A stretch of DNA of 24,504 nucleotides from a virus: IMG/VR virus record IMGVR_UViG_3300012008_000029, positions 1 to 24,504 of that record; one strand, written 5' to 3'. A program made the position numbers and the translations under genes. The notes below the pieces were generated by a model. That model was given only the letters and a program-made list of their open reading frames with translations. It made no database searches and was not told the origin of the DNA. Positions 36 through 18,357 of the stretch are shown here, in pieces. Every line of letters starts with the position of its first letter. The stretch's first letter is position 1.

Positions 36-1766
36 GTGGCAAGGACACGCACGATCGACGTCCTGGAGAAGGTGCGCGACGGGCGCTACCGCGTCTCCCG
101 TGACGGTGCGGCGCTCTGCGACCAGCTCGGTATCCCCGACCCGGTAGCGGCGCTAGAGGCTGCCTGGATTTCGCTCGGTGGACGCCCGAAGAACGGACGC
201 CCGGTAACGACGAGCGAGCACGAGAAGAAGCGCCAGCACACGTACAAGCGAACACGCGACAATACGGCGCATCATGAGCCGACGGCAGGGGAGGGCGGGG
301 AGGCGCTGCTCGCCGCGCTCGCCGAGGCTGGCGCGTCCGCGTCCGGCTATACGCCGCGACGTGAGCTTCAGTACGCGCTGCAAGGGCGCGAGGGCTTCGC
401 CGATCCCGGCGTGCGCTCGGACGGCGCGTGGTTCGCGCGCTTCTGCGAGTCGCAGCTCACACTCTTTGAGGGCGCGCAGTTCCGCGGGCTGCCGATGGTG
501 CTGGCGTCGCACTGGCGCTCGTTCTTCGACGAGCTGCTCAGCTTCGACGATCTCGGGCACCGGATCTATGAGACGGGCGTCGCGGAGATCCCGCGCAAGA
601 ACGCGAAGTCTCATACCTGCGCGGCGGGCGGCATCGCGTTTGGCTCACCGGCCGAGGGCGAAGGCGCACCGGACATCGTGCTCGCGTCGGGCACCGCCAA
701 ACAGGCGGGCGAGGTCTTCACTCCGGCGGTCACCTTCATTCGCAAGTCAGAGATCCTGGCGATGACCTTCAAGCCGTTCCTCTCGGCGATCACCTGTCCG
801 GCGAACGATGGCTCGATCTACCGGATCGCGGCCGACGGCGACACGCAGTACGGGCAGGGGCCGTACGTGACGCTCGCCGACGAGCTACACGTCTGGACGC
901 AGCCGAAGCAGGTCAGCCTGTGGGCGGCGTTGCGCTCGGCGCACGGCGCGCGCGAGGACTTCCTCGACATCGTGATCTCGACCGCGGGGTCTGACCCCGA
1001 GTCGATCCTCGGCGGCATGCGCAAGTACGCGAAGGAGCACCCGCTCTGCGAGAAGCGGCCCGACATGGGCGGCGGCGGATTCATCCTGCGCGACAAGCAG
1101 GCCAAGATCCTCTTCCACGCATACGAGGTCGCACCCGAAACACCGCTCGACGATCTACCGGCATGGAAGGCAGCGAACCCCGCTACGTGGCGCACGCCCG
1201 AGCGGATCGCAGCCGACCTTGCCGACCCGTATCTCGACGAGCCGTCGAAGCGAAGGCAGTACGGCGACGAGTGGACGTCGGCCGAGTCGCGCTGGATCAG
1301 CGTCGACCAGTGGCGCGACGCGCTCGACAAGCTCGCGCACCCGAGGCCCGACGGCACACCGGACGAGTTCATGCCGCGAGGCGTAGACATCCACGTCGGA
1401 GTCGACGCGGCGATCAGCCACGACTGCATCGCTGCCGCATGGGCGTGGCGCGCGCCAGATAGCTCGATCCACGTGCGCGTTCATGTGTGGTCTGTACGCC
1501 CGAACGTTTCTCACCACTCGTTCGTCCCTGGCGGGCGGATGATCGGCGAGGACACCGCAGAGCCGTTCGTGCGCGACGTACTCGCGAAGAACTACCGCGT
1601 GCGTAGCGTCGCATACGACCCGCGCTACTTCGAGACAGAGGCGACGCACCTTCGCTCGGGCCGGGCTACTCGTGGCGGATCTGCCGCAGGCGTCCGGCGC
1701 AATGCTGAACGCGCGCTCGCGCTGGTTCAACTCGATCGTCGAGCATCGCATCCGGCACGACGGTGA
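36..1766 (+). CDS. terL: Terminase large subunit, N-terminal and central part (frame breaks near 1651-1662)
   Basis: DNA-packaging motor: the ATPase pumps phage DNA into the prohead and the nuclease cuts the concatemer. I start it at GTG 36, 8 nt after AGGAGG (22-27), rather than at the upstream ATG 18, which has no ribosome site. Numbered from that GTG, the Walker A-like loop PRKNAKS is at residues 186-192, Walker B LADE at 280-283, and the coupling motif STAG at 315-318. The nuclease-domain acidic residues D457 (VDAA) and D528 (YDPRYF) are also visible. The first ~80 residues are basic and precede the ATPase; no small terminase lies inside the window. From about codon 540 the frame turns Arg/Gly-rich and stops at 1766, while the natural C-terminus continues in the next frame (1672-1935). 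Joined, the protein would be ~632 aa, normal for the family. Identity is secure from motifs and from the portal gene that follows. Confidence 0.93.
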   Translation: MARTRTIDVLEKVRDGRYRVSRDGAALCDQLGIPDPVAALEAAWISLGGRPKNGRPVTTSEHEKKRQHTYKRTRDNTAHHEPTAGEGGEALLAALAEAGASASGYTPRRELQYALQGREGFADPGVRSDGAWFARFCESQLTLFEGAQFRGLPMVLASHWRSFFDELLSFDDLGHRIYETGVAEIPRKNAKSHTCAAGGIAFGSPAEGEGAPDIVLASGTAKQAGEVFTPAVTFIRKSEILAMTFKPFLSAITCPANDGSIYRIAADGDTQYGQGPYVTLADELHVWTQPKQVSLWAALRSAHGAREDFLDIVISTAGSDPESILGGMRKYAKEHPLCEKRPDMGGGGFILRDKQAKILFHAYEVAPETPLDDLPAWKAANPATWRTPERIAADLADPYLDEPSKRRQYGDEWTSAESRWISVDQWRDALDKLAHPRPDGTPDEFMPRGVDIHVGVDAAISHDCIAAAWAWRAPDSSIHVRVHVWSVRPNVSHHSFVPGGRMIGEDTAEPFVRDVLAKNYRVRSVAYDPRYFETEATHLRSGRATRGGSAAGVRRNAERALALVQLDRRASHPARR

Positions 1767-4061: not shown

Positions 4062-5204
4062 ATGGAAACCAAAGAGCTGCTCGACTCGCTGAAGAGCGAG
4101 TGGGAGCAGTTCAAGTCCGTTGACGCAGAGCGTCTCGGGGAGATCGAACGGCTCGGCGGCGTGACCGTCGAGACCGAGACGAAGCTCGCCAAGATCGACG
4201 CTGCGATGACCGAGGTCGAGCTGCGCTTCGAGCGCCTCTCGCTGGAGTCGAAGCGGAACACCGATGGCCCCTCGCTTGAGCGCAAGGCGTTCGAGTCCTG
4301 GGTCTCGACAGGCACCGTCACACCTGACGAGCGCAAAGACCTGACAATCATCGGCGACGACTCGGCTGCCGTTCTGGCACCGCCCGAGATCGTCCTGGAG
4401 ATGGTTCAGGCCGCTCAGATGCGTGAGCCGCTGCTCAGCCTGGTGCGCACGCGCCAGACGAAGCAGAACTCGATCAGCTTCCCGACCCGCGCGACCCTCT
4501 CGAACGCAGTGTGGGACGCCGACCAGGGCGACTACACGGTCGAGACGACAGCTCCGGCATTCGACAAGTCGGACATCAACACGTACGGCTCGCATGCCGT
4601 CGTGGACATCGACGCAGTCTCGCTCGAAGACACGATCAACCTCAACCTCGAAGCCGACCTGATCGCCGACTGGGCACGCGCTTTCGCCGTCCTCGACGGC
4701 GTCGCCGTGGTGAGCGGCTCGGGCACAGGACGTCCCAAGGGCATCCTGACCGAGCTGACCGACGTGGTCGAGCGGACAACCGGCGCTGCCGGGGCATCTA
4801 TCACGTACGACAAGCTGAACGCGCTCGTCGACACGCTGAAGACGCCGTACCGCAGCAACGCGAGCTTCGTGGTCAACCGGCTGACGATGGGCATCCTTCG
4901 CGGCATCAAGGACACGGCAGGCGGCTACATCTGGCAGCCCGACGCTACTCGTGGCCTCGCAGGCTCGATCGTCGGCTATCCGTACGCCTTCTCGGAGAAC
5001 CTCGCTGTACCGGGAGCGAACGCGGAGTGCGCGATTTTCGGCGACTTCTACTCGGGCTACTGGCTCGTGAACAGGCTGTCCGTCGAAGTTCAGCGCGACC
5101 CGTACACGCAGTGGCCGCACGTGCGGTTCAAGGCGCGGCGTCGCGTAGGCGGCAAGGTCGTGCTCGGTGAAGCGCTCAAGGTCTACAAGTGCGCGGCCGC
5201 GTAA
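4062..5204 (+). CDS. Major capsid protein (HK97 fold)
   Basis: Main shell protein. The 380-aa product begins with a ~75-residue charged helical stretch typical of the delta domain removed by the prohead protease. The HK97-fold core follows, with LAPPEIVLEMVQAAQMREPLL entering it, the E-loop region with SISFPTRATLSNAVW, and the spine/P-domain with VLDGVAVVSGSGTGRPKGIL, a family hallmark. The C-terminus ends with KARRRVGGKVVLGEALKVYK. AAAGGAAA precedes the ATG. A strong stem-loop follows the stop, which may limit read-through or stabilise the mRNA 3' end of the most heavily expressed gene. Cross-linking residues cannot be judged from sequence alone. Confidence 0.95.
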   Translation: METKELLDSLKSEWEQFKSVDAERLGEIERLGGVTVETETKLAKIDAAMTEVELRFERLSLESKRNTDGPSLERKAFESWVSTGTVTPDERKDLTIIGDDSAAVLAPPEIVLEMVQAAQMREPLLSLVRTRQTKQNSISFPTRATLSNAVWDADQGDYTVETTAPAFDKSDINTYGSHAVVDIDAVSLEDTINLNLEADLIADWARAFAVLDGVAVVSGSGTGRPKGILTELTDVVERTTGAAGASITYDKLNALVDTLKTPYRSNASFVVNRLTMGILRGIKDTAGGYIWQPDATRGLAGSIVGYPYAFSENLAVPGANAECAIFGDFYSGYWLVNRLSVEVQRDPYTQWPHVRFKARRRVGGKVVLGEALKVYKCAAA

Positions 5205-5233
5205 GCCTGACGCACTAGACCGAGACAACGAAC

Positions 5234-5281
5234 AGGGGGCGGGCGTGCGGTGGGTCTAAGAGCCGCTGCGCCCGTCCCCCT
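5234..5281 (+). terminator. GC-rich hairpin after the capsid gene
   Basis: Long inverted repeat: 5234-5245 pairs with 5269-5281 (12 bp with one bulged T at 5275), and the inner arms 5247-5250 and 5263-5266 (GCGG/CCGC) extend it. No T-run follows, so it is not a textbook intrinsic terminator. It may attenuate transcription or protect the capsid mRNA. The next gene starts 20 nt later with its own ribosome site. Confidence 0.6.
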
Positions 5282-5301
5282 CGTCACACGAAGGGGCTGA
5301 T

Positions 5302-5457
5302 ATGGCAAACGTAGAAGTCACGAGCGAGCCTCGCGTCGAGTACGTGCGCGCGCGCATCATTCGCGCGGATGGAACGATCGAAGACGTCGGCGACATTCAG
5401 ATCGCCAGTCGGCCTTCTCTCGTACGACGGCTGCTCGGGAAGATCGGAAGGAAGTAA
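5302..5457 (+). CDS. Small protein of unknown function, 51 aa
   Basis: Short open frame with ATG 5302 preceded by AAGGGG (5291-5296). The product is MANVEVTSEPRVEYVRARII at its start, has RADGTIEDVGDIQI in the middle and a basic end (VRRLLGKIGRK). No signal peptide, membrane segment or known motif is seen. It lies between the capsid hairpin and the next virion-like gene, 3 nt before that gene's ATG, so the two are probably co-translated. The basic C-terminus and location would fit a small head-associated protein, but that is a guess. Confidence 0.65.
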   Translation: MANVEVTSEPRVEYVRARIIRADGTIEDVGDIQIASRPSLVRRLLGKIGRK

Positions 5458-5460
5458 GCA

Positions 5461-5844
5461 ATGGCAGCAATGGTTGTCAACGCAGGCAAGGCGATCCTCG
5501 CCGCGGCCTGCAAGTACACGGCCACCACGCAGTTGGAGCCGAAGTACTGCGACTGGGGCACGTCGGCAACGGCCGAGGCGATCACGCAGACCGGCCTTGT
5601 CGCCGTGGCGACCGAGGCGCGCACGTCGGGTACCTCGTCGCTCGTCACGACAACGGTCACGAACGACACCTACCAGGTGGTCGCACTGATCACATGCGCG
5701 GGCGCGGGCAAGACGATCCAGGAGGTCGGCCTGTTCGACGCAGCAACGGTGGGCAACATGCTCTGCCGCGCGGTACACGGTGCGCAGACCCTCGCGGTCG
5801 GCGACGCGATCGAGTACACGATCGGCGTGAAGATGGCGGGCTAA
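5461..5844 (+). CDS. Probable small virion protein (head decoration or fibre type)
   Basis: The 127-aa product is rich in Thr, Ala and Val with alternating beta-strand patterns. Its segment TIQEVGLFDAATVGNMLCRA, followed by a GDAIEYTIGVK strand, resembles a recurring phage structural pattern (EVGLFDA...ML.R.......GD...TYTI) seen in small tail- or head-associated proteins. It follows the capsid gene, where decoration proteins are commonly encoded. AAGGAAG precedes the ATG. A 10-bp hairpin follows the stop. I cannot decide between capsid decoration and a fibre-tip role. Confidence 0.55.
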   Translation: MAAMVVNAGKAILAAACKYTATTQLEPKYCDWGTSATAEAITQTGLVAVATEARTSGTSSLVTTTVTNDTYQVVALITCAGAGKTIQEVGLFDAATVGNMLCRAVHGAQTLAVGDAIEYTIGVKMAG

Positions 5845-5859
5845 CCCCCGCTGACAAGT

Positions 5860-5902
5860 CGGGCGAGCGGTCTGGGAAGTCATGACCCCTCGCGCTCGCC
5901 CG
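5860..5902 (+). terminator. 10-bp perfect GC hairpin before the TatA-like gene
   Basis: 5860-5869 (CGGGCGAGCG) is perfectly complementary to 5893-5902, with a 23-nt loop that can pair a little further (GGG 5874-5876 with CCC 5886-5888). No T-run follows. It sits between the small virion gene and the TatA-like gene, 20 nt before the latter's ATG and just upstream of its AAGGAG site. It may be a partial terminator or RNA processing element. Confidence 0.6.
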
Positions 5903-5922
5903 CAACCTTTGAAGGAGACGCT

Positions 5923-6075
5923 ATGCCGTTCAATATCGGCCCGGTCGAGCTGATTGCGCTGCTGCTCGTGGCGCTCCTGGTCTTCGGCCCGAAACGGCTA
6001 CCGGAGGTCGGACGCGGCCTCGGCCAGTCAATCCGCGAGTTCCGCGACACGATCAAGCACACGACAGAGGACTAA
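5923..6075 (+). CDS. TatA/MttA-like membrane protein encoded by the phage, 50 aa
   Basis: The whole product matches the minimal TatA/TatE/TatB plan. Residues 4-7 are NIGP, E9 is a polar residue at the start of the membrane helix, and the helix is VELIALLLVALLV (8-20). The hallmark hinge FGPKRLP lies at 21-27, then an amphipathic helix EVGRGLGQSIREFRDTI (28-44) and a short charged tail. In bacteria TatA oligomers form the variable translocation element that works with TatC to export folded proteins bearing twin-arginine signals. Cellular TatA is usually 60-90 aa; here the acidic tail is nearly absent. No TatC is in the window. ATG 5923 follows AAGGAG (5911-5916). The next gene starts 3 nt after the stop. 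Motif match is direct; a role in export, membrane permeabilisation or lysis is inference. Confidence 0.88.
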   Translation: MPFNIGPVELIALLLVALLVFGPKRLPEVGRGLGQSIREFRDTIKHTTED

Positions 6076-6078
6076 GAG

Positions 6079-6708
6079 ATGGCATCGACGTACCCAACTA
6101 CGCTTGACAGTTTCGCCACGACTCGTGCCGACGGCACGCCGCAGGCGACGACTCACCCGGGCGACCACGACAACGAGAACGACGCGATCAACAAGATTGA
6201 GGCGTTTATAGGACTCGCGGGCGTCTTGCCGGTCTTCGACCTCGTTAAGAAGTACGGTGTCGCGACGAGCGCCACCGCGACGGCGAACGCGGCAGCGATC
6301 CATGCGGCGTTTGCGGACGCTGCCACGATCGGCGGCGGTGTCTACCTACGCGGCAGCGCGTCGTTGTACCCATGTAACCCGTTGACTCTTCCGCGCGCGC
6401 CGATCAGATTCTTCGGCGACGGGCCGACATCGAGCGTTCTCGCCGCAGTCGCCGCCGGGCCAGCTGCGCCGATGCTCTCAGGCGACTCGGTCGGACAACC
6501 AACTTCGGGGCCGTTCACGCCGGTCGGAAGTAGCGCGCAGAATATGTACCAGATGAACCTGGACCGTCATCGACGGTCTCGGGTTCAACGGCTACAACAA
6601 TCAGGTCTCCGGCGTCAAGGGGATCTCGATCGTGAACCAGAGTGGCTTTCACCAGCAGTTCCTGCTCAACCGGCTCGCGGTCTTTGCTACATGGGGCACC
6701 GGGATTGA
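6079..6708 (+). CDS. Beta-helix spike/fibre protein, N-terminal part (frame breaks near 6555-6565)
   Basis: N-terminal part of a virion spike. Residues ~1-50 hold the phage fibre start pattern (YPTTLDSF...THPGDHDNENDAINKIEAFIG). A pectin-lyase-type entry follows: VKKYGVATSATATANAAAIHAAFADA, then GGGVYLRGSASLYP and PIRFFGDGPTSSVL, the usual first rungs of phage tailspikes. After QNMYQMNL the frame becomes Arg-rich nonsense and stops at 6708, while the natural continuation (TVIDGLGFNGYNNQVSGVKGI) is in the +1 frame from about 6563. The gene starts 3 nt after the TatA-like stop with only a weak GAGG site, so coupling is likely. Its place between capsid and neck genes may mean it is attached to the head rather than the tail. 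Confidence 0.8.
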   Translation: MASTYPTTLDSFATTRADGTPQATTHPGDHDNENDAINKIEAFIGLAGVLPVFDLVKKYGVATSATATANAAAIHAAFADAATIGGGVYLRGSASLYPCNPLTLPRAPIRFFGDGPTSSVLAAVAAGPAAPMLSGDSVGQPTSGPFTPVGSSAQNMYQMNLDRHRRSRVQRLQQSGLRRQGDLDREPEWLSPAVPAQPARGLCYMGHRD

Positions 6709-7669
6709 ACTGATCAACTCCGGCAACATCTGGGGCGAACTGATCCAACAGTGCATGGTCTGGAACACCACGGGCAGCGGATACGACCTCGGTTCGGACA
6801 TGATAATCGCCAACTGCCAAGCCGCCAATAACGGCTATGAGGGCTTCCGCTCAATCGGCTATGGCACGAGCCTGCAGATCGACAACTGCAAGTCGTACTC
6901 GAACGGAACCATCACCGCGTCACGAGGCGTCGGCTTCTACTTCGGCTCCAACGGTGCAGGGATCGCCTGCACGAACCTCGACGCCCAGGACAACTTCGCC
7001 GAGGGCGTTGTCGTTGAGGACTCGGGTGCTGGTGAGTCGCATAACATTACAATCAACGGGCTGATCTGCGATAGCAACTCCAGCGCCACCGGAACCTACT
7101 CCGGCCTGCGACTGAGTAGCTGCCACGACGTGCAGGTTAGGGGATACGTCGCGACCGATCGCTACTACGGAAGCGTGACATCTCAGACTCACGCTCTCAA
7201 AGTCACGAACCCCGCCGGGACGAACTACAGCAACTCCGTTCAGCTCGTCCAGAGTCCGACCGACGAAGGGCGCGGGTACCCGACGATGCTCGCCCCGATC
7301 GACCCGGCATCCGACCTGCTAGGGACAGACGTTCAGGTCGGCGCATCTGGTGGCGGTCAGATCGCCGTAACGGTCACGACCGGCGTGGTCGCGGCACTCG
7401 ACCCGTATAAGGGCGCGAACAAGAAGATCCCGGTGGCCGCGAACATCACGACGATACCGGCCCCATCAAACCTCCATCGTGGCTGTCGGATGCGGCTGAC
7501 GTTCACCGCGTCCGGGGCATTCACGGTCGGCGGCTGGAACGCTGTCTACAAGGGCACCGCCAGTCTCCCATCGGGGGCGGGCGCAAACGGCCAGTTCTTC
7601 GTCGCCGAGTTCGAGTGCGACGGCACCAACTGGTACCAGACGAACGGCACCGTGGCCTGGCGCGCGTAA
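6632..7669 (+). CDS. Beta-helix spike/fibre protein, main part in the shifted frame
   Basis: Continuation of the spike; the meaningful sequence starts upstream of the first possible start, at about 6563. It shows repeating beta-helix rungs rich in Asn, Gly and Ser (GIELINSGNIWGELIQQCMVWN, SDMIIANCQAANN, TSLQIDNCKSYSN, HNITINGLICDSN). A linker and a C-terminal domain follow (PYKGANKKIPVAANITTIPAPSN ... GQFFVAEFECDGTNWYQTNG) of the type that ends many phage fibres. Right-handed beta-helix spikes often bind or cleave surface polysaccharide; I see no assignable catalytic residues. No ribosome site lies at GTG 6632, so this is not an independent gene. Joined to the upstream part the protein would be ~529 aa. 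Confidence 0.8.
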   Translation: MNQSGFHQQFLLNRLAVFATWGTGIELINSGNIWGELIQQCMVWNTTGSGYDLGSDMIIANCQAANNGYEGFRSIGYGTSLQIDNCKSYSNGTITASRGVGFYFGSNGAGIACTNLDAQDNFAEGVVVEDSGAGESHNITINGLICDSNSSATGTYSGLRLSSCHDVQVRGYVATDRYYGSVTSQTHALKVTNPAGTNYSNSVQLVQSPTDEGRGYPTMLAPIDPASDLLGTDVQVGASGGGQIAVTVTTGVVAALDPYKGANKKIPVAANITTIPAPSNLHRGCRMRLTFTASGAFTVGGWNAVYKGTASLPSGAGANGQFFVAEFECDGTNWYQTNGTVAWRA

Positions 7670-7684
7670 AACGAAGGAGGGGCG

Positions 7685-7846
7685 ATGACACGCAAGCAGT
7701 TCGCAACGGCGGCAGCACTCGTCGTCATCGCCCCCTTCGCGTTCCTCTCGTCGGCGGACGGCAAAGGCAAGCCGCCGCCGAGGCAATCGCCTACGGGCAC
7801 ATACGGGGCGGGCACATACGGTTCCGGTAACTACGGGGGTGTGTAG
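7685..7846 (+). CDS. Small exported protein with a Tat-like signal peptide and Gly-Tyr tail, 53 aa
   Basis: ATG 7685 follows a strong AAGGAGG (7674-7680). The N-terminus TRKQF resembles the twin-arginine motif (S/T)RRxF with Lys in the second position. It is followed by an Ala/Val-rich moderately hydrophobic stretch and a plausible cleavage point after SSA (residue ~24). The mature part would be only ~29 residues: a Lys/Pro segment and a Gly-Tyr repeat tail (TYGAGTYGSGNYGG). The following fibre has a similar GTYGYGLYGDGTYGGG block. The gene lies 1.6 kb after the TatA-like gene in the same cassette. Export is likely; the Tat route is inference, since RK motifs are tolerated less than RR. Function unknown. 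Confidence 0.65.
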   Translation: MTRKQFATAAALVVIAPFAFLSSADGKGKPPPRQSPTGTYGAGTYGSGNYGGV

Positions 7847-7848
7847 GA

Positions 7849-9954
7849 ATGGCCGCTGCTACATTCCGCGCCGCTGGAGCTAAGTCAAACGGCACGACCG
7901 GCGCGGTGACCGTCGCTGCGCCTGCGGGCGTTGCGACCGGTGACCTCGAAGTTCTGATCGCGTCAACGATCGCGGCCGGATCGGTTGCGATCACGACCGC
8001 CGGCGGCTCGGCCTGGACGGCGGTCACTGGTTCCCCCCAGGACGTGGCGAGCGGCGAGAAGCTGTACGTCTGGTATCGCGTGCGCCAGGCGGGGGACGGT
8101 GACCCGATCGTCACCCCGGGCAGCGACCATTCCTGCTCAGCACGGCTCGCCTACACGGCGGGCACCTTCGATAGCACGACGCCGATCGAGATCCCGGCAG
8201 CCAGCTCCGAGACGACATCAGACACATCGTTCTCGTGGGCACCGGGCGGCTCGACCGCGGGTGTGGATAGGCTCGTGCTCTGCGTCGCATCGCAGGGCAC
8301 CGACTCGAACACCGCGTCGATCCCGGTGATGACGGACGCTAGCCTGACGGCGCTTGCCTCGCGCGTCGACTACTGCACGGTCTCAGGCGGGGGCGGCGGC
8401 TTCGGGGCTACGGAAGGGACACGCGCCGCGTCGGGCACGGTTGGCACGTTCGCCTGTACCTACGGCACCGCGTCAACGAAGGCATACATCAGCTTTGCTA
8501 TCCGCCCGCACGTCGCGACGACCTACCAGATCACGGTCGGCCCGATCTCTGCGAGCAACGCGATCGCGGCGAAGCGCAAGGGCAAGACGCGGCTCGCGAT
8601 CGCGACGACGAACGCCGTCATCGTGACGCCGGTCTACCAAGGGCAAACCCCCGGCACCTACGGGTACGGGCTGTACGGCGACGGCACCTATGGCGGCGGT
8701 GCGGCAGGCATGACCTACCCGATCACGGTTTCTCTCACCGCTACGAACACGCTCGCGCTCGTACGCAAGGGCAAGACGCACCCGGTTATCGCGACGACGA
8801 ACGCACTGACGCTCGCGCGCAAGGCGAAGCTCGCCCGCGCTATATCAGGCGCGCATGCGCTCGTGCTTCAGCGCAAGGCGAAGATCGCCCGCGTTATCGC
8901 GAGCGCGAACGCCGTCTCTGCGACGATCAAGAACGTCAAGCGTCTCGCCATCGCCTTCGTCACGACGAACGCCGTCTATCTCGGGCGCAAGGGCAAGACT
9001 CGACTAGTAGTCGCCACGGCGAACGCGGTCTCGTTACGGCGTAAGGCGAAGCTTCGCGCGGTTCTGCCGACGTCGAACGCTGTCGCGCTCGGCCGCAAAG
9101 CGAAGCTCCGCGCCGTGCTGGCGACTACCAACGTCGTCTCAGCGAGGCGCAAGGCGAAACTGCCGCGCCTACTCTCGGCCACGAACACCGTGACGGCGAC
9201 GCTCAAGCGGGTCGCACGGATCGCTATCGCGCTCGCGACCGCGAACACGATCGCCCTGAAACGTAAGGGCAAGATCAACCGGCAGGTTGCGAGTACGAAC
9301 GCTCTAGCGCTAGCACGCAAGACGAGGCTGCCGCGCATCATCGCGACAACGAACACGCTGGCGCTCAAACGCAAAGGCAAGCTCGTCAGTATTATCGCCA
9401 CTGCGAACGTCCTGACGGTTGCGCGCAAGGCGAAGATCCGGCGGGTGCTCGCAACCGCGAACACGCTGACGGTTACGCCGCGCGCCGTGATCGGTGCCGT
9501 CACCTATCACCTATCGGTCGCGCTCGCCACGGCGAACGCAGTCGCGGTGAGGCGGCGCGTACAGATCCGGCGCACAGTTACGACGGCGAACACGCTCGCG
9601 CTCGTACGCAAGGGCAAGACGCGGATCGCGCTCACGAACGCATCGCCGCTCACGGCGCTTAGGCGCACGGGCAAGGTGCGGAGCGCGATCAGTACGGCGC
9701 AGGCGATCACGGCCAGGCGTCGGAGCACGCAACGCGTCGCGGTCGAATCTAGCCAGGCCGTCACTATCCACCGCCGCGGACGCATTCATATCGCGCTCGC
9801 AAGTGCGGCAGGAGTCGTCGCGTCGATCTTCTACCGCGTCAGGCAGATGCGGCTCACGCACCCGTTCGATTCACCGAGGCCGAACCGTGGCCTTGACGCA
9901 CCGCACGCAACCGAGGCAGAACGTCTCGACGTGCCTGATCCTCATAAGGGGTAG
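7849..9954 (+). CDS. 701-aa repetitive basic fibre/adhesin-like protein
   Basis: Two-part protein. Residues 1-~222 form a beta-sandwich-like domain common in actinophage structural proteins (PAGVATGDLEVLIAS, VWYRVRQAGDGDPIV, TAGTFDSTTPIEIPA). From ~224 to ~660 come about 21 degenerate copies of an 18-residue repeat, roughly ATTNALALxRKxKLRRVI. They have a near-invariant Asn, alternating small/hydrophobic residues and a basic RKxK core, so the protein is extremely basic. Longer variant repeats recur about every fifth copy. A Gly-Tyr block (GTYGYGLYGDGTYGGG) interrupts the second repeat. The pattern predicts a beta-solenoid or strand-turn-strand rod. Role in cell-surface (teichoic acid, polysaccharide) or nucleic acid binding is speculation. 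It starts 3 nt after the previous stop and lies just before the neck genes. I recognise no named family for the repeat part. Confidence 0.82.
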   Translation: MAAATFRAAGAKSNGTTGAVTVAAPAGVATGDLEVLIASTIAAGSVAITTAGGSAWTAVTGSPQDVASGEKLYVWYRVRQAGDGDPIVTPGSDHSCSARLAYTAGTFDSTTPIEIPAASSETTSDTSFSWAPGGSTAGVDRLVLCVASQGTDSNTASIPVMTDASLTALASRVDYCTVSGGGGGFGATEGTRAASGTVGTFACTYGTASTKAYISFAIRPHVATTYQITVGPISASNAIAAKRKGKTRLAIATTNAVIVTPVYQGQTPGTYGYGLYGDGTYGGGAAGMTYPITVSLTATNTLALVRKGKTHPVIATTNALTLARKAKLARAISGAHALVLQRKAKIARVIASANAVSATIKNVKRLAIAFVTTNAVYLGRKGKTRLVVATANAVSLRRKAKLRAVLPTSNAVALGRKAKLRAVLATTNVVSARRKAKLPRLLSATNTVTATLKRVARIAIALATANTIALKRKGKINRQVASTNALALARKTRLPRIIATTNTLALKRKGKLVSIIATANVLTVARKAKIRRVLATANTLTVTPRAVIGAVTYHLSVALATANAVAVRRRVQIRRTVTTANTLALVRKGKTRIALTNASPLTALRRTGKVRSAISTAQAITARRRSTQRVAVESSQAVTIHRRGRIHIALASAAGVVASIFYRVRQMRLTHPFDSPRPNRGLDAPHATEAERLDVPDPHKG
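8518..9820 (+). repeat. Tandem degenerate 54-bp (18-codon) repeats inside the fibre gene
   Basis: About 21 protein-level repeats of 18 codons. The best conserved codons encode the Asn of the turn (usually AAC in gcgaacgc or acgaacgc contexts) and the cgcaagg(g/c)gaag core for RKxK. Longer copies (20-25 residues or more) break the register near 8614, 8914, 9180 and 9466, giving a super-period of about five repeats. Divergence between copies is too high for recent slippage. Confidence 0.85.
8519..8550 (+). repeat. 32-bp segment shared with 18180-18211 (copy 1)
   Basis: The 32 bases coding for TTYQITVGPIS in the repeat fibre match 18180-18211 in the minor tail frame with one mismatch. Both copies follow the end of a beta domain. 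Confidence 0.85.
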
Positions 9955-9957
9955 CGA

Positions 9958-10914
9958 ATGTTCGAGATCATCAAGGACGCACTCGCGCCCGCAGTTGAAG
10001 ACACGATCCGTATCGACGGTGACCCGGTCGCGCTGGATGCGGTGACGTTCCGCATGCGGCCCGAGTCCGGCTCGACGCTGGTCGTGGACTCGGTCGCTTC
10101 TCTCGTCGATGCTCCGACGGGCAGCGTGCGCTACGACTGGGCGGCGGGCGATACGGACACGCCCGGCGACTACCTCGCCTGGTGGCACGCCACGCCTACG
10201 GGCATGGAGCCGCAGGACACTGCCGAGTTCTCGGTGCGTGTTCTTGAGCACGCGCCGCAGGCATGGGCGCTCTGCTCGCTCGCCGATGTACGCGAGGCGC
10301 TTGAACTCGACGACGACGAGCGCACACGTGACGACCTGATCCGCACACGGATCGAGTCTGCGTCGGCGCTGATCGTCGGCGAGACCGGGCGCGAGTTCAC
10401 ATCGACCGGCATGCTCGGAGCCGAGGTCACGCGGCGCTTCCCGGTCGACGCCCAGAGCTACAGGAACCGCAAGGGCGGCTATCTCGTCAACTTCGGCGAC
10501 GCCTGCGAGTTGCGCGTCGCCAAGACGGTGACGCTCAATTCCGAGACTACATCGCCGACCGTGCTCGACCCGATCCAGTTCCAGCTCTGGCCCGCGCGCC
10601 TCCGTAACGGCAACGCGCTCGGCATCATCGTCCGCGGCGACGTCAACCTCGGCACGTCCACCACGATGCAGTGGTGGGGCTTCGCGAGCCTCGACATCGA
10701 GGGCGAGTGGGGCTTCGCGGCCGTACCTCCCGAGATCCGCGACCTCACCGTCGACACTGTCGGCTACTGGCTGCGCAGAGACATCGCGCAGATCGGCTAC
10801 GCCGAGGGCGGCGCAGAAGCAACGCAGTTCGCACCTCGCGGGCCGGGCGGCTTCGACCTCCCGCTGTTCGCGAAGCGGCGGCTGCTCCGCTGGCGTCGCT
10901 CGATGGGAGCGTGA
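9958..10914 (+). CDS. Head-tail adaptor with an N-terminal BppU-type Ig domain
   Basis: Residues 1-~97 look like the baseplate upper protein N-terminal (BppU_N) type of Ig-like domain: DAVTFRMRPESGSTLVVDS, TGSVRYDWAAGDTDTPGDYLAWW, ending in a strand EFSVRVL. From ~100 on comes a neck adaptor (gp6/phage_connect-like): LADVREALELDDDERTRDDLIRTRIESASALIVGETGREF, the helical entry of such proteins, followed by a beta-rich insertion and a helical tail (PPEIRDLTVDTVGYWLRR). Adaptors form the first ring below the portal. AAGGGG precedes the ATG. Finding both domains in one chain is odd, because BppU_N domains are normally in fibres or small separate proteins; it may display an Ig domain at the neck. 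The tail terminator gene follows 3 nt later. Confidence 0.75.
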   Translation: MFEIIKDALAPAVEDTIRIDGDPVALDAVTFRMRPESGSTLVVDSVASLVDAPTGSVRYDWAAGDTDTPGDYLAWWHATPTGMEPQDTAEFSVRVLEHAPQAWALCSLADVREALELDDDERTRDDLIRTRIESASALIVGETGREFTSTGMLGAEVTRRFPVDAQSYRNRKGGYLVNFGDACELRVAKTVTLNSETTSPTVLDPIQFQLWPARLRNGNALGIIVRGDVNLGTSTTMQWWGFASLDIEGEWGFAAVPPEIRDLTVDTVGYWLRRDIAQIGYAEGGAEATQFAPRGPGGFDLPLFAKRRLLRWRRSMGA

Positions 10915-15918: not shown

Positions 15919-18357
15919 ATGAGGCGCATCGCGCTGCTGGCCGTCGTCTTCGCGGCGCTGGCGATGGTTGGATTCGGAGCCGGAAGCGGTGACGCGAGGC
16001 TCCTGTGGGATGGGACGATGGGAGCGAACGCTTCCTGGTCGGACACCCGCTCGCATCCGCCGCATCCGCCGCACCCGACTACGACGACGACAACCTCGTC
16101 GACGACTACGACGGCCACCACGACGGCCCCGACGACAACTACCGGCGTGACTACCGCGCCCACGACTACCGCGGCCACCACGACGGCCCCGGTGACTACT
16201 ACCGCGCCCACGACGACGACGGTAGCGACCACCACGACCGCGCCGACTACGACGGCAGCGACGACGACGACGGCCACCACGACGGGAGGCAATATGGCAC
16301 TAGGAACATCACTGCCCGCGCGGCTGCCGTTCTCCTCGGGAGGCAACACGTACTACGTCGACCCGACGTCTGGTGGCGACGACGCGCGCTCGACTACGCA
16401 GGCGCAGGTGCGGACAACGCCGTGGCAGACGATCAACCACGCGCTCGGTGCCGTGCCGCTGAGCGGCTCGGTCATCAAGGTGCTCCCTGGCTCGTACACG
16501 TCGAGCGGGTACTCAAATATCCCGCTCAACTGGACGCGCGCGGGCGACGTCACCAACCCGGTCACGCTGATGGCGGAGACGGCGTTCACGGTCGACATCA
16601 TCGCCGGAACGGCGGGCGGTAACACGTTCGCGACCTGGGTTCACAGCGCGAGCGGGCTGCGCGTCACTGGCTTCAACATCTATGGGAACATTGTCGCCAA
16701 CTCGTCGATCTACGAGACCGCTCTCAACATCGAGGCATCCGACAAGATCGAGTTCAGCGGCAACACCTTCAACCAGATCGGCAGTTGCGCGGTCGGCGTC
16801 AAGGGTGGCCCGGCAGGATCGGGGATCACGTCCGACGACATCTGGATCTACGGCAACATCTTCCGCCCGAGCGGTACAAACCCGTTCGCGCAAGTCACCG
16901 GTCTCAACTTCCCCACCAACACCTACTTCGGCACGAAGGGGTCGCATTGGGTCTATATGGGGATGTGGGGCGGCAACCCGGCATCCGGCTGGAACGAGAA
17001 CAACGGCGCGAATCGCTTCGTCGTCGCCAACAACGTCTTCGTCGGCTCGGCCGCGGGTCGGCACGTCGAGCTTGGCCCGGAGGCCCGCAACGGCTTCGTC
17101 GTCAACAACACCTTCTACGGCAACCACATCTTCCAGTTGCTCGGGACAGGCTACCCGTCGCTCGACGCAACGGCGGAGTGGGCGGGCAGCGGCATGGAGT
17201 TCTTCGCGAACACGAGCCAGACTGCCTTCGCGACCGGTAACAACCAAGTCCATAACAACGTCTTCGTCGACCTCGACGGGCACGGCGCGTACGGCTCCGG
17301 GCCGACCGAGGCTGGCAACTACATCTTCACGAACCTCAGCTACAACCTCCGCAACGGCAGCGGATACCAGGGCGACAGGACGCAGGACTTCCTGGCGACA
17401 GACAGCAGCGGCGGAACGCTGTTCGCGGCTGGCTCGAACATCAAGGGCGACCCGAAGTTCGTCGCCCCCGGGACGTACGACTTCCACCTGCAAACCACAT
17501 CGCCCGCGGCGAGCGCGGCCGATCCAATCTATGCCCCCCCGCTCGACATCGAGGGGAACGCGCGCGACGCTAGCCCGTCGATGGGCGCATACGAGGGCAC
17601 GGGCGGCGGTACCGGCGGCGCACCTGCCGCGGGCACCTATACCCCGCCCGTCGTGGACGGTCGCGCGATGGGCACGGCTAGCGCGACGTATCCGCCCGTG
17701 TCGCCGGGCTACGACAACAGCGGCCCCTCGCTAGACATGATCCGCTGGCTCGATAGCGGACTCTTCGGCCTCTACGTCTCCGTGCTCGGCTTCGACACGT
17801 CGGCGATTCCCGACACCGCGACGATCAACAGCGCCACGTTGCAGCTCTACCTGACATCGAACGAGCACACAGACGGGCGCTATCTCGTCGGCGAGTATTT
17901 CGACTATGGCGCAGGGGTGGACGCTGCCGACTACTCGTCCACCGCGCCGGGATCTCCGATTCTCAGCAAGGCCCAAACCGCGCTGACGACGTCGGCCTAC
18001 AACGATCTCCCGATCAGCGACCTGAGCGGCGTCTCGAAGACCGGCACCACGAAGCTGCGGCTCACGCTCTCGGGCGGACAGCCGACGGGCCGCAACTGGG
18101 TGAGCGCGAACTCGTCGCGCGGCACCTACGCGCCCAAACTTCTTGTCGACTACCACGACGGCGGGTGCTCCGGGGAGCACGACCTACCAGATCACGATCG
18201 GCCCGATCTCTACGGCGACTGCGGTCTCGCGCACGGCGACAAACGTCCCCGTCCAGGCAGCTACCCCGACTCCGACCGTGACGACCAAGATCGCCTTCGC
18301 ATCGCGGCCGGGCGACACGCCGCAGGTCTACACCGACGTCTCGGCCTACACGCGTGA
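15919..18357 (+). CDS. Signal peptide / Thr-rich / beta-helix / DNRLRE-type surface or tail protein
   Basis: Start ATG 15919 follows TTGGAGG. Domains: an export-signal-like N-terminus (MRRIALLAVVFAALAMVGFG, residues 1-20), a His/Pro linker, and a Thr-rich tract (54-122, 46 of 69 Thr). A right-handed beta-helix follows (~135-560: YYVDPTSGGDDARS, PWQTINHAL, VIKVLPGSYTSSG, GLRVTGFNIYGN, NRFVVANNVFVGS, FVVNNTFYGN, ending GDPKFVAPGTYDFHLQ). Last is a DNRLRE-type carbohydrate-binding module (~590-745: DTATINSATLQLYLTSN, TKLRLTLSGG, YAPKLLVDY). After Y745 the frame becomes nonsense to 18357, while a minor tail sequence opens in the next frame, so the two may be one long protein. A second start, ATG 16294 with GGGAGG (16284-16289), would give a virion protein without signal or Thr tract. 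A signal peptide on a tail protein is odd; host-surface modification is an alternative role. Confidence 0.8.
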   Translation: MRRIALLAVVFAALAMVGFGAGSGDARLLWDGTMGANASWSDTRSHPPHPPHPTTTTTTSSTTTTATTTAPTTTTGVTTAPTTTAATTTAPVTTTAPTTTTVATTTTAPTTTAATTTTATTTGGNMALGTSLPARLPFSSGGNTYYVDPTSGGDDARSTTQAQVRTTPWQTINHALGAVPLSGSVIKVLPGSYTSSGYSNIPLNWTRAGDVTNPVTLMAETAFTVDIIAGTAGGNTFATWVHSASGLRVTGFNIYGNIVANSSIYETALNIEASDKIEFSGNTFNQIGSCAVGVKGGPAGSGITSDDIWIYGNIFRPSGTNPFAQVTGLNFPTNTYFGTKGSHWVYMGMWGGNPASGWNENNGANRFVVANNVFVGSAAGRHVELGPEARNGFVVNNTFYGNHIFQLLGTGYPSLDATAEWAGSGMEFFANTSQTAFATGNNQVHNNVFVDLDGHGAYGSGPTEAGNYIFTNLSYNLRNGSGYQGDRTQDFLATDSSGGTLFAAGSNIKGDPKFVAPGTYDFHLQTTSPAASAADPIYAPPLDIEGNARDASPSMGAYEGTGGGTGGAPAAGTYTPPVVDGRAMGTASATYPPVSPGYDNSGPSLDMIRWLDSGLFGLYVSVLGFDTSAIPDTATINSATLQLYLTSNEHTDGRYLVGEYFDYGAGVDAADYSSTAPGSPILSKAQTALTTSAYNDLPISDLSGVSKTGTTKLRLTLSGGQPTGRNWVSANSSRGTYAPKLLVDYHDGGCSGEHDLPDHDRPDLYGDCGLAHGDKRPRPGSYPDSDRDDQDRLRIAAGRHAAGLHRRLGLHA
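16078..16284 (+). repeat. Threonine-rich low-complexity tract (ACG/ACC/ACT codons)
   Basis: 69 codons, 46 of them Thr, in runs of two to six separated by Ala-Pro, Ala-Ala, Gly-Val or Val-Ala. It resembles the extended, often glycosylated stalks of actinobacterial exported proteins. The repetitive acgacgacg DNA is slippage-prone, so its length may vary between relatives. Confidence 0.9.

Follow-up and report, generated by a model that had tools for sequence, protein, structure and literature searches.

The closest characterized counterpart of the assembly considered here is fibre I of the Ralstonia podophage GP4, in which an elongated rope protein reportedly joins gp80 dimers into a chain. The Gp80-family profile matches chain a of PDB entry 8JOU (E 1.2e-49), present in 10 copies in the model, and chain D of the same entry is the gp77-type adaptor, a protein of ~90 residues (Pfam Gp77 ‘GP4 fiber-tail adaptor’, PF23148). 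The profile also weakly matches chain K of 9c39 (E 0.0055) and chain I of 9mt4 (E 0.039), small ‘Phage protein’ chains in six copies, and more of the solved phages may have the bead fold.

Among isolates, a Gp80-type gene and a repeat gene adjoin a gp77-type adaptor gene in BcepIL02 (gp55-56-57), DC1, JC1, POI1126, PBC5 and Mycobacterium phages. A 20-residue periodicity (z 4.4-10.5) is found in the repeat proteins of BcepIL02 (gp56, z 7.6), DC1, JC1, POI1126 (POI1126_16, z 7.1), PBC5, C72C1, ctjtQ328, Aegeus and Archie. The gp56 protein of BcepIL02 (Lessievirus) is annotated as virion-associated and, counted by eye, contains about 11 units, a number near the 10 gp80 chains of 8JOU. Both POI1126_16 and PBC5 orf12 are basic, with Arg-Arg in most units, so that basic two-strand-like repeats already exist, unrecognized, in this slot of isolates. 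Virion mass spectrometry of phage JC1 found the bead gp53 and the adaptor gp55; the published protein list does not include the repeat protein gp54 (PMC9144972). In Agrobacterium phage Atu_ph08 (NC_070876, our locus L026), the rope gene (326-835, minus strand) is unannotated, and the annotation has in its place an ORF that overlaps it on the other strand.

A basic 18-residue repeat between the capsid and adaptor genes

The DNA analysed here, which we call the window, is an entire IMG/VR contig of 24,504 bases carrying the gene set of a long-tailed phage: terminase, portal, protease, capsid, head-tail adaptor, tail completion and tail genes. The bead and repeat genes lie between the capsid and head-tail adaptor genes (Table 1), a position compatible with attachment near the head-tail vertex. 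One-base frame changes, which are probably sequencing or assembly indels, seem to split the terminase (18-1766/1672-1935), the beta-helix-like fibre (6079-6708/6632-7669), the tape measure (13534-15639/15455-15847) and a lyase-like/tail protein (15886-18357/18143-19450); the repeat-gene and capsid ORFs are unbroken.

Table 1. Features of the window discussed in the text
Feature	Position	Strand	Remarks
Proposed bead, small virion protein	5461..5844	+	phrog_5417 E 2.6e-12; phrog_240 ‘head protein’ E 6e-5
Fibre gene, Asn/Gly/Ser-rich, right-handed beta-helix-like by eye	6079..7669	+	Frames 6079-6708, 6632-7669
Repeat (proposed rope) protein	7849..9954	+	701 aa: N-terminal domain, repeats, C-terminal tail
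N-terminal ~220-residue domain, exchangeable	7849..8508	+	50-72% identity to L003-L011
Basic 18-residue unit, about 21 copies	8518..9820	+	Residues 224-657
Tyr-Gly-rich insert inside repeat array	8638..8709	+	Residues ~264-287, GQTPGTYGYGLYGDGTYGGG
Non-repeat C-terminal tail	9821..9951	+	Comparable Pro-rich tail in L033 (FNWPKPEGECDRDEPTGDFDRPNPRPTKGE)
Head-tail adaptor	9958..10914	+	phrog_442 E 1.6e-10; extra ~110-residue N-terminal domain (phrog_33358)

The initial annotation had reported about 21 copies of an 18-residue repeat in a phage fibre protein, and the array is present at that place and in that number. Residue autocorrelation over residues 224-660, compared with composition shuffles, gave z = 14.9 at lag 18 and z = 11.7 at lag 36. 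Anchoring on the motif [TASG][NHQ][AVTL][VLI] located 20 copies (anchor residues 237-636) and one more near residue 600, shifted by 1 residue, making 21. The Tyr-Gly-rich insert, which had gone unmentioned, interrupts the array, and module breaks precede residues 289 and 552 (TY[PH]..). The unit spacing is 18 residues, with two units of 20.

The 15 cleanly aligned units give the consensus T-[TA]-N-A-[LV]-A-L-x-R-K-[GA]-K-[LI]-R-R-V-[IL]-A, in which Arg-9 is present in every unit (15/15) and Asn-3 and Lys-10 in 12 units each. Mean amino acid identity among these units is 39%, against 10.3% (SD 0.8) in shuffled composition; mean DNA identity among units is only 55%, with the best DNA tandem pair at 78%, so that the repeat is old and has been conserved as protein sequence. 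The repeat region has a net charge of +77 over 437 residues (+17.6 per 100) and a pI of 12.0, whereas the N-terminal 223 residues are acidic (pI 4.8).

Two further features of the surrounding sequence were observed. YG motifs like that of the insert begin the repeat proteins of phiM5 (phiM5_18) and ctjtQ328, and a 54-aa ORF directly before the repeat gene (7685-7849) ends in GTYGAGTYGSGNYGGV, a similar YG motif. A stretch of 33 bases at the start of the array (8518-8550) is identical at 32/33 positions to 18179-18211, near the start of ORF 18143; it encodes TTYQIT[VI]GPIS and represents a sequence recently copied within the genome from one virion gene to another.

In line with the earlier remark that no named repeat family was recognized, its best Pfam match was the irrelevant LAT2 (E 0.6), its best PHROG match was the sub-threshold phrog_3684 (E 0.23), and the repeat region had no match among PDB sequences at E <= 10. 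The whole repeat protein had no tblastn match in GenBank phage genomes, and a search of IMG/VR with the repeat consensus gave no confirmed relative. Two IMG/VR matches of the DNA pattern for TN[AT]xLxxRK[GA]K were rejected, both being chance matches in a primase-like protein. Prophage searches with the N-terminal domain and with the capsid protein (one genome per species) returned none; capsid relatives below 60% identity are scattered over many hosts.

Coupling of the repeat gene to a putative bead gene

The small protein that we propose as the bead has a nearly invariant TVTNDTYQ motif in its family, and appears from its sequence to be a distant relative of GP4 Gp80. The similarity is weak (hhalign against the Gp80-family profile: probability 30%, E 5e-4); phrog_240, which it matches, is also matched by the Pfam-confirmed Gp80 of another locus, L008 (E 1.6e-20). 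The repeat gene is the second larger gene downstream of the bead gene, and the broken fibre gene and a small ORF intervene. The function of the fibre gene comes from inspection, its PHROG search having been empty, and its membership in a bead-repeat assembly is not proved.

With the small protein as query, 53 relatives were found in IMG/VR. We scanned 43 loci, 40 from the bead-family search and three found with the adaptor, for periodic ORFs (z > 6 at lags of 16-25 residues) within 3.5 kb downstream of the bead gene. Such ORFs made up 29/135 of those downstream, in 29/43 loci, against 0/198 of those upstream. The 29 loci should not be read as that many independent events, since some loci nearly duplicate one another and L061 seems to carry a repeat of another kind.

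The same pairing was seen in loci ascertained independently, through the N-terminal domain of the repeat protein. Upstream sequence was read in seven such loci (L003-L008 and L010), and a gene for a small protein of 134-204 residues lay immediately upstream of the repeat gene in all seven. This protein is Pfam Gp80 ‘podophage GP4 fiber I protein’ in L008 (E 1.8e-34), matches Gp80 just under the cut-off in L003 (E 6.5e-6), which L010 resembles by inspection, and falls in phrog_644 in L005-L007 and phrog_26662 in L004. The repeat gene is thus conservedly coupled to a bead gene, and the window repeats belong to a widespread, unnamed group of short repeats often encoded near a bead-like virion protein.

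Repeat number, whose variation the initial annotation had proposed to check, and period differ among related phages: in 23 bead-linked repeat regions, the estimated number of units runs from about 10 to more than 80. The longest rope seen is a 1596-residue ORF in L072 (7425-12215) that is almost all repeat, with ~87 units by length.

What precedes the repeats is exchangeable. The N-terminal domain of the window protein matches the ‘minor tail protein’ XM05_65 of Erythrobacter phage XM05 (hhalign E 7e-15), an isolate in which the domain occurs without such a repeat array. No homology was detected between it and the N-terminal domain of Archie gp24. In L003-L008 and L010, a window-type N-terminal domain is followed by very different repeats: 21-residue PAAINATSAVTG.. 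in L003 and L010, LTPVTETSSAV.. in L004, GVGSLTLTGFAPTV.. in L005 and L006, ATPDPIAATWSVPEPVVTVGGI in L007 and LAGTAAAxATTxGAL in L008. The periods of these repeats are 18-24 residues and their net charge ranges from +16 to -6 per 100. Comparison of the window units with them by a shuffled-column profile test (L008, 1/60; L003/L010, 3/60) is only suggestive of homology. In L004, a 1600-residue protein (4980-9779) has ETD-type repeats alternating with several globular domains, LamG-like by eye, which indicates that the repeats also act as inter-domain spacers.

Homology of the window units was clearest with the sister contig L033, in which the gene order is terminase, portal, protease, capsid, bead, repeat protein and adaptor. 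With permutation controls that keep the 18-residue periodicity, the window-unit profile scored 124 bits on L033 against at most 39 in 40 permutations, 63.5 bits on L037 (permutation maximum 31) and 28.6 bits on L073 (maximum 20). These three beat 40/40 permutations and L058 and L064 beat 39/40; most others do not exceed theirs. The L033 bead is 75% identical to that of the window, and its repeat protein (919 aa, ~22 units) has a different N-terminal domain; bead and rope therefore stay together while the N-terminal domain swaps. The basic podophage repeats of POI1126, PBC5 and Atu_ph08 have a similar register to the window units, at a score not above shuffled columns (12/60).

The N-terminal domain of the window adaptor sits near the slot that the GP4 gp77-type adaptor occupies in isolates. 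The gp77-type profile gave an hhalign E of 0.2 against window 9958-10320, and no such adaptor was found in L003, L006 or L008 either. It is possible that the extra domain is the fibre anchor. Extra N-terminal domains of ~110 residues also occur on head-tail adaptors in L003 (6944-7861), L004 (9776-10639) and L010 (6929-7837); those of the window and L033 resemble each other, and those of L003, L004 and L010 are fibronectin-like in appearance.

A candidate rope for a beads-on-a-rope fibre

The reading of the gene product as a virion fibre-type repeat protein is supported, and we consider it somewhat more probable than otherwise that the repeat region serves as the rope in a virion fibre built as beads on a rope and operating as fibre I does in GP4. 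Each 18-residue unit, we infer, would be an extended segment made up of a strand (NALAL), a basic turn (RKGK) and a second strand (LRRVIA), and would dock on one subunit of the bead protein encoded upstream. The number of units, ~21 docking units in the window rope, would in this proposal set the length of the fibre. The exchangeable N-terminal domain would be the distal end and is probably adhesive, and anchoring would fall to either the C-terminus or the adjacent domain that the head-tail adaptor carries, which would place the fibre at the neck or at a head vertex. By analogy, a pairing of one unit with one bead subunit would fit the counts of ~11 units in the Lessievirus repeat protein and 10 gp80 chains in 8JOU. 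A structure of the rope was sought by sequence and none was found, so docking itself was not seen.

The fold suggested for the unit would also suit a shaft that stands without beads. A homotrimeric beta-spiral or beta-solenoid-like rod bearing the N-terminal domain could be built from the basic turn and the pair of short strands in each unit, and the small/hydrophobic alternation at unit positions 4-7 and 13-17, the Gly/Ala in the turn, the high beta propensity at positions 5, 13, 16 and 17, and the Pro- and Thr-rich repeats behind window-type N-terminal domains in other loci all agree with it. An AlphaFold model of the whole protein from a mixed alignment likewise has short strands across the repeats, but at a pLDDT of only 40; the beta hydrophobic moment is not above chance, no solved structure is matched by sequence, and a beadless shaft gives no role to the tight genetic coupling with the bead gene. 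We regard such a shaft as unlikely. Adenovirus/reovirus-type triple beta-spiral shafts consist of short tandem two-strand units with a Gly/Pro turn; the window repeat has no sequence match to any solved chain and differs from those shafts in repeat length and charge. The initial annotation had suggested that the repeat could be a new rod, a beta-solenoid or a hairpin stack, and neither a stand-alone rod nor a beta-solenoid is supported: the gene has a Gp80-like bead gene as its partner, and structure prediction, the check then suggested, returned either low-confidence beta structure or a single long helix.

That helix was obtained for residues 371-541 (171 residues), where one helix of 168 residues had a mean pLDDT of 81.5 and a pTM of 0.30. 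Since 18 residues are exactly five alpha-helical turns, the array might form one long straight helix, perhaps in a coiled coil. The five models of the run span 38 to 82 pLDDT, however, on an alignment of only three rows, and AlphaFold favours long helices for Ala-rich sequence in low-depth alignments. Calculated at 100 degrees, the helical hydrophobic moment is 0.04, a value lower than in 97% of shuffles, leaving no amphipathic face; about 30% of residues are Thr, Val or Ile; and related repeats have periods of 19-24 residues, several with Pro in every unit. We treat the helix as an Ala-rich, low-depth artefact, given the missing amphipathic face and the Pro per unit of several related repeats, and a continuous helical rod appears very improbable. 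Neither AlphaFold model, beta or helical, is trustworthy.

The charge of the array bears on a third alternative. The initial annotation had called the repeat unusually basic, which is true by comparison with its own N-terminal domain but is not unique to it, as a net positive charge is found in each of the 23 bead-linked repeat regions examined (+3 to +14 per 100, median +8). A largely unstructured basic linker could keep the N-terminal domain near the cell surface by adhering to polysaccharide, humic matter, DNA or anionic polymers of the wall, and would account for this positive charge and for the +17.6 per 100 of the window repeat. Pure charge would not, however, require the observed conservation of unit length, Arg-9 and hydrophobic positions (39% against 10% identity), and neutral or acidic repeats occupy the same place in related N-terminal-domain proteins; we find such a tether quite unlikely.

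To return to the rope, its basic charge is conserved in bead-linked ropes and not across N-terminal-domain relatives. The acidic repeats of those relatives had suggested that the positive charge is incidental, an idea revised in view of the bead-linked ropes examined, every one of which is positive. In 20 systems, rope and bead net charges were uncorrelated (Spearman -0.14, P 0.54), which gives no indication that the two simply complement each other in charge; the basic residues may contact conserved bead surfaces or a surface polymer, and the binding to wall polymers or DNA suggested in the initial annotation may also take place.

Repeat proteins of low complexity beside phage capsid or tail genes are commonly annotated as ‘hypothetical’ or as tail fibres, and a link to a bead protein with a solved relative would give many uninterpretable repeat genes a place in a single type of assembly. 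As a tentative generalization, which we hold to be plausible but more doubtful than the rope itself, the unnamed, widespread repeats of 18-24 residues may be a length-coding rope, with one bead per unit, co-evolution of rope and bead, and Arg/Lys on a bead-docking or surface-binding face. The rope is perhaps ordered only when threaded through beads, which may explain the failure of AlphaFold on such spacers; the authors of the study of Alishewanella phage LSH1 noted a failure of this kind and offered no explanation for it (PMC13243795).

Comparison with known systems

In the same article, the fibril protein 8JOU_g is dimeric and is matched by gp35 of LSH1, gp34 has a lyase-like head followed by a badly predicted, possibly repetitive spacer, and the gp34-gp35-gp36 genes co-travel in LSH1-related IMG/VR genomes; the passages covered here do not describe a rope in this module (PMC13243795).

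The minor tail proteins of Mycobacterium cluster L phages (Archie gp24, Aegeus 25; phrog_9784) also have N-terminal globular domains followed by ~20-residue repeats, and their genes lie beside Gp80-like and gp77-like genes. They differ from the window in that their repeats are neutral to acidic, in the Gly-rich domain PF21722 of Archie gp24, and in lying in the tail rather than the head gene cluster.

A further counterpart is phrog_19041 ‘virion structural protein’ (BcepIL02 gp56 and relatives), in which ~20-residue two-strand-like repeats are likewise encoded beside a Gp80-type gene. Homology between podophage units and those of the window could not be established, as the profile comparison with the basic Arg-Arg-type podophage repeats did not surpass shuffled columns (12/60). 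These Lessievirus relatives (BcepIL02 gp55-56-57, JC1 and DC1) carry the same GP4-type gene group, from which the window differs in its unit of 18 rather than ~20 residues, its strongly basic composition and its siphovirus-type long-tail gene set.

With GP4 fibre I (gp80, PF23140; gp77, PF23148), the window shares the arrangement of a small bead gene near a tandem-repeat gene and an adaptor gene. Its bead is distant, and in the slot of the gp77-type adaptor, none being detectable, there is a domain fused to the head-tail adaptor. As it has no recognizable gp77-type adaptor, we file the window system outside the membership of GP4 fibre I, as one that would work in the same way.
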